Assembly: GCA_903910445.1 (NCBI GenBank)
Contig: CAIVZR010000090.1
Coordinates: 1 to 64,000 of the forward strand
From: an uncultured Bacteroidota bacterium
GTDB lineage: Bacteria > Bacteroidota > Bacteroidia > UKL13-3
Length of the DNA: 64,000 nucleotides
Reading direction: 5' to 3'
Shown: positions 8,720-58,792 of the stretch, one piece after another
Position numbering within the stretch: position 1 is the first letter of the stretch
Layout of the letters: every line of letters begins with the position of its first letter
Position numbers and translations under genes: made by a program
The notes under the pieces: model-generated
Database searches by the model: none
What the model was told of the DNA's origin: nothing
What the model saw: the letters and a program-made list of their open reading frames with translations, nothing else

Positions 8720-8883
8720 GGATTGAAATCATTCAACGGGACCTGAACGGGTCATCACCATTTTTCCATTTTGCAATTCATAATATTCCTGAATTACTTG
8801 TTCCGATTCATTGTCAACGCGTATACTTCGAAAGATTTCATATAATTCCATAAATAAATTCGATTTATAATTTTCAATTGTAT

Positions 8884-8956
8884 CCATGTCAGTCTTGGGA
8901 AATTTGGTGGGTAGCCTAAGTAGGCCAATGTTCTGACGTGCATTAGTTACGTTTAT
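8884..8956 (+). repeat. Degenerate half of the composite palindromic repeat
   Basis: Contains TTTGGTGGGTAG followed by a decayed outer arm (ACGTGCATTAGTTACGT, compared with ACGTGCCGTAGGTACGT elsewhere). The inner hairpin has lost complementarity (CATGTCAGTCTTGGGAAAT). It appears to be an old copy of the element at 9231-9297. Confidence 0.6.
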
Positions 8957-9075
8957 ATAAATGATGTTAAAGGAAATGCAATTACGTCTAATATTTGGTG
9001 GCCATTCGCCTCTCCTTGCAGCAAACACGCAACAACGGCGGATTCGGGATGGGTCCCAAATGAAATGCACATCAA

Positions 9076-9297
9076 ACGTTCCTATGGAACGTCAGTCATG
9101 GGAGGAGTTATGTTTCTACCCACCAAATGACCCCATAGGGTCATAATACAATATCCTCCATAATACGATTTCTGAATTATAAATCACTCTTGTATTCCTC
9201 CACTCTCACTCTCACACTCAAACTGTATTCATGTCCCCATAGGGACATCTGGTGGGTAGCATAAAGGTGTCCCTGAATTGATGTGCCGTAGGTACGT
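9076..9297. repeat. Composite palindromic repeat, copy A
   Basis: Order of parts: outer hairpin ACGTTCCTATGGAACGT (9076-9092); box CTACCCACCAAATG (9116-9129); inner hairpin 9127-9144 with ATG/CAT ends and an ACCCC/GGGT stem; an AT-rich central segment with imperfect TATAAT/ATTATA symmetry; a CTCTCACTC tract; inner hairpin ATGTCCCCATAGGGACAT (9231-9248); box CTGGTGGGTAG (9249-9259); outer hairpin ATGTGCCGTAGGTACGT (9281-9297). The two halves mirror each other. Related copies lie at 16404-16621 and 58474-58664. Confidence 0.85.
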
Positions 9298-9382
9298 TTG
9301 AATATTGGTATTGATTAATACAAAATCGTGAAATGACATTTCAATAATGTATTCAAAAAAAGTCATTCTATAGACGCCGCAG

Positions 9383-9430
9383 GTTGTTGTTGTGTGAATG
9401 CTTTAGCTAGTGTTTCTTCAACGGCCAAAT
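9383..9430 (+). repeat. 48-bp companion repeat, copy 1
   Basis: Aligned by hand without gaps to 58745-58792, 35 of 48 positions are identical; the ends are conserved (GTTGnTGTTGTGTG at the start, CAACGGnCAAAT at the end) and the middle is variable. Both copies lie just outside composite palindromic repeats. Confidence 0.55.
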
Positions 9431-9557
9431 GTTCGACGGAAAATTGCGCCCAGTTGTTGGTGACCCGCCGCACAACCTTACACACAATACGCAACAACGG
9501 CGGAAACAGGATTTGTTCCGGAAGTGAAGTAAAATAATTAGTTTAGCTAAACTCAAT

Positions 9558-16254: not shown

Positions 16255-16662
16255 TGAGGTGGGATTAGATTTTGAATAGAGTGTAAAAATAGGATGTTCG
16301 AATGGAGGAAAAAAATCAGTGTGAGTGAGATGTGTGAGAGCGGAGGAATACAAGGGTGATTTATAATTTGAAATATGAATTATAAAGGGAGTTGGGCTTT
16401 CTAACGTACCTACGGCACGTCAACAGGGGAGCCACTATGCTACCCACCAAATGTCCCTAAGGGGACATGAATACAGTGTGAGTGTGGTGTGTGAGAGCGG
16501 AGAATACAAGGGCGATTTATAATTTGAAAATTGAATTATAGAGGATGCTGTATTATGTTCCTTAGGAACATCTGGTGGGTAGAAAAACCACGCCCCCCCG
16601 ACTGACGTTCCATAGGAACGTTTGACGAAGATGTTCAATAAAAAAAATGAATCAAAAAATAT
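16255..16662. other. Intergenic region holding composite repeat B
   Basis: 408 bp. Besides the full element at 16404-16621, a partial extra copy of the central segment lies at about 16318-16395 (GTGTGAGAGCGGAG, then AATACAAGGGTGATTTATAA). No coding frame is supported. Confidence 0.75.
16404..16621. repeat. Composite palindromic repeat, copy B
   Basis: Same architecture as copy A. Outer hairpin ACGTACCTACGGCACGT (16404-16420), box CTACCCACCAAATG (16440-16453), inner hairpin ATGTCCCTAAGGGGACAT (16451-16468), TG-rich tract, central TATAATT/AATTATA hairpin, inner hairpin ATGTTCCTTAGGAACAT (16555-16571), box CTGGTGGGTAG (16572-16582), outer hairpin ACGTTCCATAGGAACGT (16605-16621). The tract and central part run in the opposite direction to copy A. 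Confidence 0.85.
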
Positions 16663-34744: not shown

Positions 34745-34857
34745 GTGAATGCTTGGGATAGTGAATGGTGAATGGTGAGTGGGTCTTGTGTATGGAGTCT
34801 TCAGTAGATAGTACTAATACAGGTGGAAAAATTCTTGATAAAGTTTTACCTCTACTC

Positions 34858-34940
34858 CGTCGTTGCGTCTCCGACCAACGATTCACTAGAACTTCTTCGA
34901 CCTATAGCTAAAGTGTCCGTCGTTGTGTCTCCGACCAACG
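34858..34940 (-). repeat. Two inverted degenerate copies of the 113-bp array unit core
   Basis: CGTCGTTGCGTCTCCGACC-type cores at 34858-34880 and 34918-34940, 60 bp apart, are reverse complements of the array hairpin. The sequence between them also matches, on the minus strand, the array segment that follows the hairpin (AGGTCGA-AGAAGTTCTAG compared with AGGTCGAGAAGGTTCTCG). Confidence 0.7.
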
Positions 34941-35037
34941 ACCGCATTGACCTTCTGCTATCAATGTATTCTTATGAGAAGTCAAATAAGAAAATGAATA
35001 ACGAACCAATAATACATTCCTATACGAGAAGCTCGGG

Positions 35038-35400
35038 GCCGTTGGTCGGAGACGCAACGGCGGACATAGCGTTAGTAGGTCGAGAAGGTTCTCGAGGACA
35101 GCGCATCAATAGCATCAATCAATAATACATTCCTATATGAGAAGCGCTGTGCCGTTGGTCGGAGACGCAACGGCGGACATAGCGTTAGTAGGTCGAGAAG
35201 GTTCTAGAGGATAGCGCATCAATATCATCAACCAATAATACATTCCAATATGAGAAGCGCTGTGCCGTTGGTCGGAGACGCAACGGCGGACATAGTGTTA
35301 GTAGGCCGAGAAGGTTCTCGAGGATAGCGCATCAATAGCATCTATCAATAATACAATCCTATATGAGAAGCGCTGAGCCGTTGGTCGGAGACGCAACGGC
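35038..35400 (+). repeat. Tandem array, 113-bp unit, three full and one partial copy
   Basis: Units begin at 35038, 35151, 35264 and 35377, exactly 113 bp apart; the fourth ends after 24 bp. Each starts with a hairpin GCCGTTG-GTC-GGA-GAC-g-CAACGGC, followed by GGACATAGCGTTAGTAGG, a second hairpin CGAGAAGGTTCTCG, GCGCATCAATA and AATACATTCC with a closing AGCGCT. Units differ at only a few positions, indicating recent duplication. Confidence 0.9.
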
Positions 35401-35452
35401 AGATGAGATAATTGTAGTGTGAGAAATGAAATACAAGAAATATCTTTCTCGT

Positions 35453-58220: not shown

Positions 58221-58418
58221 CTGTATTCCTGCCCTGTAAGGGCTTATCATGGGTAGAAAACCGGCTCCCCCTGTATTCTGCCCTGTAGGGGCCTATCGTG
58301 CAGATATTCATAGATTTAAAATTTTCCGCTCACCGGATTTGCAACACAATTGGTTCCTACGGAACAGTCTAGAGAGGGAAGGATTTCAATTGCTACCCAC
58401 GATAAGTTCCTAAGGAAC
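58221..58418. repeat. Divergent subfamily of the composite repeat
   Basis: Parts in order: CTGTATTCCT with hairpin GCCCTGTAAGGGC (58231-58243) and ATCATGGGTAG; CTGTATTCTG with GCCCTGTAGGGGC (58280-58292) and TATCGTGCAG; outer-type hairpin GTTCCTACGGAAC (58353-58365); CTACCCACGATAA followed by GTTCCTAAGGAAC (58406-58418). Box and stem sequences differ from the main subfamily but the order of parts is the same. Confidence 0.65.
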
Positions 58419-58473
58419 AAAATCCATTCGTTATAATAAATTTTCATTCAATTTATAATTCCCAGCTGAATTC

Positions 58474-58664: not shown

Positions 58665-58744
58665 AATACAATATCCTCTATAATTCCATCTTCGAATTAT
58701 AAATCACTCTTGTATTCCTATACTCTCACTCTGCTTATGCCTCA

Positions 58745-58792
58745 GTTGGTGTTGTGTGCAAGCCTCTGCGCATGCTTCACCAACGGACAAAT
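58745..58792 (+). repeat. 48-bp companion repeat, copy 2
   Basis: Ungapped match to 9383-9430 (35 of 48 identities by hand). This copy can fold: GTTGGTG pairs with CACCAAC across a GCAAGC/GCTT inner part. Confidence 0.55.

Follow-up and report, generated by a model that had tools for sequence, protein, structure and literature searches.

REPIN-like two-hairpin elements of a Bacteroidota genome and their probable mobilisation by a subclass 1.2 IS200-type TnpA

We have found a family of small composite repeats that are best explained, with a probability of about 0.7, as REPIN-like non-autonomous elements that a subclass 1.2 TnpA recognises and moves in single-stranded form. Three copies (A, B and C) lie in the window, the 64-kb stretch of DNA that was analysed (64,000 nucleotides). 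As in REPINs, two inverted units are joined in each copy and fold together; as single-stranded DNA, composites A, B and C gave folding z-scores of -6.5, -5.1 and -8.2, respectively, against shuffled sequence.

Read 5' to 3' on the strand that carries GTAG, a half-element of ~78 nt is composed of TGTATT, hairpin 1 (a 7-bp stem with a 3-4-nt loop), TTTGGTGGGTAG, about 20 nt, hairpin 2 (also with a 7-bp stem) and TTTGA, and every locus is an inverted pair of such halves. Locus A comprises A1 (9072..9150, minus strand; covariance model E 1e-19) and A2 (9224..9301, plus strand; E 6e-20). In A1, hairpin 1 (9127-9144) has the stem ATGACCC/GGGTCAT, the box is GGTGGGTAG and hairpin 2 occupies 9076-9092; in A2, the hairpin 1 stem is ATGTCCC/GGGACAT and hairpin 2 contains a G.T wobble. 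Locus B is made up of B1 (16400..16475, minus strand) and B2 (16549..16625, plus strand; stem ATGTTCC/GGAACAT), and locus C of C1 (58467..58544, plus strand) and C2 (58594..58670, minus strand; stem ATGCCCC/GGGGCAT), all four being matched by the covariance model. Elements of the window are also detected by R2, a model built from 17 half-elements of other species only (A2, E 2.5e-5; B1, E 7.5e-5). The halves face outward from an AT-rich centre in copies A and B, whereas those of copy C face each other, with the box-side hairpins outermost and the GACGT hairpins inside, which is the arrangement seen at the tnpA locus described below. The earlier note had recognised a common hairpin-box-hairpin design at these three loci, and its description stands with small corrections to the boundaries and the reversal of copy C. 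One further half-element (8879..8956, plus strand; 28.9 bits) has decayed, its box being intact and its stems broken.

The 3.43-Mb, 107-contig genome (hereafter G000) contains 63 copies of the box GGTGGGTAG. A genome-wide search with a covariance model, which the earlier note had suggested and for which 26 half-elements were used in training, did recover further copies: there were 91 matches at E<=10, and the family amounts to 49 full-length copies (at least 69 bits) and about 35 partial ones. All but one of the full-length copies (48/49) are intergenic, that is, outside ORFs of at least 150 aa, which make up 74% of these loci; an abundance of intergenic copies, frequently as inverted pairs, is likewise typical of the REP superfamily. 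Stem changes among the 26 half-elements are compensatory. Relative to shuffles that ignore the relatedness of the copies, 98.4% of stem cells are paired (90.0% in shuffles), 32 stem cells are altered on both sides (9.9 in shuffles) and the covariation score is 0.264 (0.113 in shuffles), a value that 0 of 500 shuffles reached; slid-partner controls left only 24-50% of cells paired. Hairpin 1 was not chosen for pairing; covariation on alignment A6 is biased, its hairpins having been picked for pairing. The paired substitutions reported in the earlier note were real, and we judge its reading of them, selection on a folded strand, to be right. Ten stem types of hairpin 1, each with its complement, were counted in 78 full-length copies taken from two genomes; the common types are ATGTCCC, ATGTTCC, ATGCCCC and ATGTCCT. 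Within the family, GTAG stands 14 nt from the loop in 48 of the 48 boxes that have a hairpin.

The window holds no Y1 transposase gene, as had been noted from the sequence alone; seven Y1 genes lie elsewhere in the genome. One of these, an IS200-type HUH-Y1 tnpA on contig C43 (15067-15525), has on each side an inverted half-element with the layout and box of the family, and a model whose training set included neither of the two detected both (E 1e-8 and 6e-10). Their stems, TTCTTCC/GGAAGAA and ACCTTCT/AGAAGGT, are unlike those of the dispersed copies, so the C43 gene is linked to the family by box, layout and co-occurrence, and not by identity. The C43 TnpA carries the motifs DHIH, WQ and YIQNQRIHH, retains HUH, Y115 and Q119, and has a predicted structure that matches the TnpA of ISDra2 and of IS608. 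It scores above the cut-off of the IS200 model NF033573 and below that of the RAYT model NF047646, reaches 35 bits against a cut-off of 80 with the REP_Tyr_transpos model, and lacks the Y motif ending in NP of RAYTs. REPs of the GTAG superfamily are defined by a GTAG or GTGG that precedes the foot of the hairpin by 0-2 nt on its 5' side (PMC6006769), whereas here GTAG follows the loop of hairpin 1 at 14 nt, on the 3' side, and precedes hairpin 2 by ~20-25 nt. The earlier note had proposed a link to REPs and RAYTs, together with a search for a RAYT gene flanked by the same hairpins. An IS200-like Y1 gene so flanked does exist on C43, but it is not a RAYT, and filing the system under RAYT/REP is ruled out by profile score, Y motif and GTAG position.

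The signature DH[IV]H, WQ and Y---Q--HH, a length of about 150 aa and a low copy number, all found in the C43 TnpA, are those of subclass 1.2, a low-copy group known chiefly from Cyanobacteria and Bacteroidetes (Quentin et al. 2018, PMC6006769). This subclass has been listed without REPs and generally without typical terminal structures (PMC6006769), whereas inverted flanking hairpins are present in G000, in relatives and in part of the 71 loci from other species that are considered below. Identity between the C43 protein and the remaining subclass 1.2 TnpAs encoded in the genome is 36-70%. A search for plasmid or phage carriers gave two distant plasmid matches and zero phage matches.

Among 58 related genomes, a high copy number is found only in G000 (82) and G003 (63), and the C43-type TnpA only in the same two, at 97% identity; the next-closest relatives of the protein are about 70% identical, and the genus sample comprises five genomes, these two being the positive ones on both counts. 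The tnpA locus is orthologous in G000 and G003, with the same neighbours. Element sites, by comparison, differ between ~90%-identical genomes. At site B (16400-16625), the whole composite is absent from the orthologous site of G003, where another repeat is present; site C is conserved in G003, and in G004 the corresponding gap of 68 nt lacks it. Two GGTGGGTAG composites occupy one intergenic site of G003 (C10:25252-25823; L146) at which G000 (C92:47904-49469; L043) has a RAYT-type gene inside a GCCGCAGTTGGTGTTGTG...CACCAACGGC array instead, and another G003 copy is replaced by C11-type repeats. These differences may represent gains, losses or both; losses could contribute, and mobilisation is suggested by the site comparisons. 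The compared sites hold other repeats, so neither a target-site duplication nor an exact insertion boundary could be defined at them; of the features of a MITE, inverted ends are present. Whole-genome co-occurrence of R2 matches and TnpA was weak when all TnpA-bearing genomes were counted (11/40 versus 1/18; Fisher p 0.053); it was strong only with TnpAs of at least about 44% identity to C43, a threshold chosen afterwards (10/21 versus 2/37; p 3e-4). As a separate observation, one end of the G003 tnpA locus (C2:44640-44861; L142) is doubled, with two identical halves 144 nt apart, and is single in G000.

The same geometry recurs in other species. From 80 loci, nearly all of Bacteroidota, 71 with usable flanks were compared; the median inverted similarity of the two tnpA flanks was 37 versus 21 for mispaired flanks, and 23 loci exceeded the 99% null. 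When every tetramer lying 8-23 nt from a hairpin loop was counted, without preselection, the commonest hairpin-tetramer combination was GTAG at exactly 14 nt (35 flanks), GTAG at any other distance being seen in at most 2 flanks and GGTA at 13 nt being an overlapping register of GTAG. The opposite-orientation geometry was seen in 20 flanks, as would be expected of arrays that run in either direction. The strict GTAG-14 geometry was present at 28 of the 71 loci, on both sides at 7; the layout is common, not universal, among relatives. Non-Watson-Crick pairs on the GTAG strand of the cross-species elements were G.T at 11 loci versus A.C at 2 (p 0.02), and in the own family 38 versus 2 cells, 34 of the 38 being one inherited variant. 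This excess points to the GTAG strand as the one that folds. Stem mismatches in the unfiltered cross-species set had no strand bias; the bias appears only in full-layout elements, and strand polarity is therefore supportive, not decisive.

The binding, cutting and moving by the C43 TnpA that we infer, with a role for each part of the element, would run as follows. Each half-element would serve as a single-stranded recognition site for a subclass 1.2 TnpA, which would bind the small hairpin on the GTAG strand; the GGTAG box, 14 nt from the loop, would be set at the active site as a guide or cleavage box, and the second hairpin would provide a second docking site. Two inverted halves would together form a non-autonomous unit that TnpA could excise or copy while the DNA is single-stranded, as on the lagging-strand template, and insert at another place, while tnpA, with the same inverted halves around it, would mostly stay put. 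Cutting or copying from single strands has already been proposed for RAYTs and REPINs. A group 3 TnpAREP is known to cleave a REP under the guidance of GTAG (PMC8266576), and by analogy a guide role may be extended to the present box.

It is unlikely that the repeats instead act at the RNA level, as terminators, mRNA stabilisers or regulators, and that their association with tnpA is incidental. The intergenic position of 48 of the 49 copies, the G.U-type wobble seen on one strand and the frequent transcription of REPs in other systems (PMC3733652) would suit such a role; however, copies run in either direction and are arranged as inverted pairs, which would leave a single half per pair in the correct reading direction, half-elements are found on both sides of tnpA, sister species have sharply different copy numbers, and an Rfam scan of the 64-kb window gave zero matches. 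A benefit to the host after insertion is possible. The maintenance of stems by compensation implies that most copies are recent or under structural selection, and the presence of the same TnpA and the same repeat family in G003 means that any lost parent must be missing from both genomes. Both points tell against a second alternative, that the repeats are decaying, MITE-like ends of an ordinary IS whose parent has been lost or lies in an assembly gap, the C43 TnpA being a cousin; we regard this as quite improbable, even though the genome is a 107-contig draft, decayed copies exist (8879-8956) and, near the short Y1 genes examined, there is no tnpA with exact ATGTCCC/ACGTTCC stems. Mobilisation of unusual REPs by the two true RAYT-type TnpAs of the genome, on C60 and C92, is very improbable: RAYTs are present and GTAG is involved in RAYT recognition, but GGTGGGTAG halves flank an IS200-type TnpA and the C92 RAYT is flanked by the different repeat GCCGCAGTTGGTGTTGTG...CACCAACGGC (flanks were read at C92 only). 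All three explanations are less supported than mobilisation by the subclass 1.2 TnpA.

Like REP/BIME/REPIN systems with a RAYT (TnpAREP), for example the REPtrons of E. coli and Stenotrophomonas, the subclass 1.2 system comprises small intergenic GTAG hairpins in inverted pairs, a Y1 transposase between inverted copies and few copies of the transposase gene, and the hairpins are close in size to REPSm (8-bp stem, 3-nt loop; PMC8266576). Unlike those systems, it has two hairpins per unit, a transposase of class 1 (the IS200 side) and not class 2, and a GTAG that follows the hairpin on its 3' side, with a constant spacing of 14 nt from the loop. Features shared with IS200/IS605 (IS608, ISDra2) are the fold and class (class 1) of the HUH-Y1 TnpA and the presence of subterminal hairpins that are read in single-stranded form. 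The tnpA flanks, however, are inverted copies of each other, which the ends of IS608 are not; there are no identical or near-identical IS copies at several loci, and the tnpA locus is constant between sister species while the small elements differ. Motifs, protein size (about 150 aa), the small number of divergent copies in each genome and occurrence in Bacteroidetes agree with subclass 1.2 as published (PMC6006769), whereas the composite hairpins that flank many of the genes here do not. TnpAREP subclass 2.6, with its 'atypical secondary structures', is similar in its occurrence in Bacteroidetes and in that repeats surround a Y1 gene and recur at other places in the genome, but its transposase is of class 2 and its repeats are different; G000 appears to have those separately.

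These elements would represent a cognate DNA element for a transposase subclass described in the open-access literature as having none, which suggests that a REP/RAYT-like partnership has arisen on the IS200 side too. We give somewhat better than even odds to an independent second REPtron-like system, in which subclass 1.2 TnpAs, widespread in Bacteroidota and by now stationary chromosomal genes, would move two-hairpin elements by means of a loop-14 nt-GTAG ruler, with stems drifting, boxes setting specificity and up to five families per genome. With a fixed loop-GTAG distance and free stems, the manner in which a TnpA-Y1 chooses its hairpins and cleavage site becomes testable, and several parallel families in one genome constitute a natural specificity experiment.

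Four more TnpAs with the subclass 1.2 signature are encoded on contigs C11, C6, C25 and C18, each with its own flanking hairpin repeats. The C11-type TnpA is paired with the box TCGTGGGTAG and the C43-type with GGTGGGTAG. C11-type repeats occur in the window at 58222-58426, as one half-element of the type that flanks the C11 TnpA (58346..58426, minus strand; box TTATCGTGGGTAG; R2 E 8e-5) and a second of this sister family (58222..58296, plus strand; TGCCCTGTAAGGGCTTATCATGGGTAG; covariance model E 3.5e-4). The repeat boxes at C6, C25 and C18 (L033, L034 and L035) are CCCGTTAATAG, GGGTTGGTWG and ...AATAATAG, respectively, and the C6 and C18 elements appear, on inspection and for C18 also by distance scan, to carry ATAG in the place of GTAG. 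Copies that resemble the C92 repeat (GTTGGTGTTGTG...CACCAACGG) adjoin elements A and C at 9373-9480 and 58735-58785 of the window, and families that belong to different TnpAs are gathered at shared intergenic sites. On contig C34 of G000 (80455-80825; L016 1870-2240), a tandem array with a ~107-nt period is built of truncated units that contain hairpin 1 and GGTGGGTAA but lack hairpin 2. A 113-bp tandem array at 34850-35408 of the window contains the palindromes CCGTTGGTCGGAGACGCAACGGCGGA and inverted copies, and is possibly another RAYT-type family.
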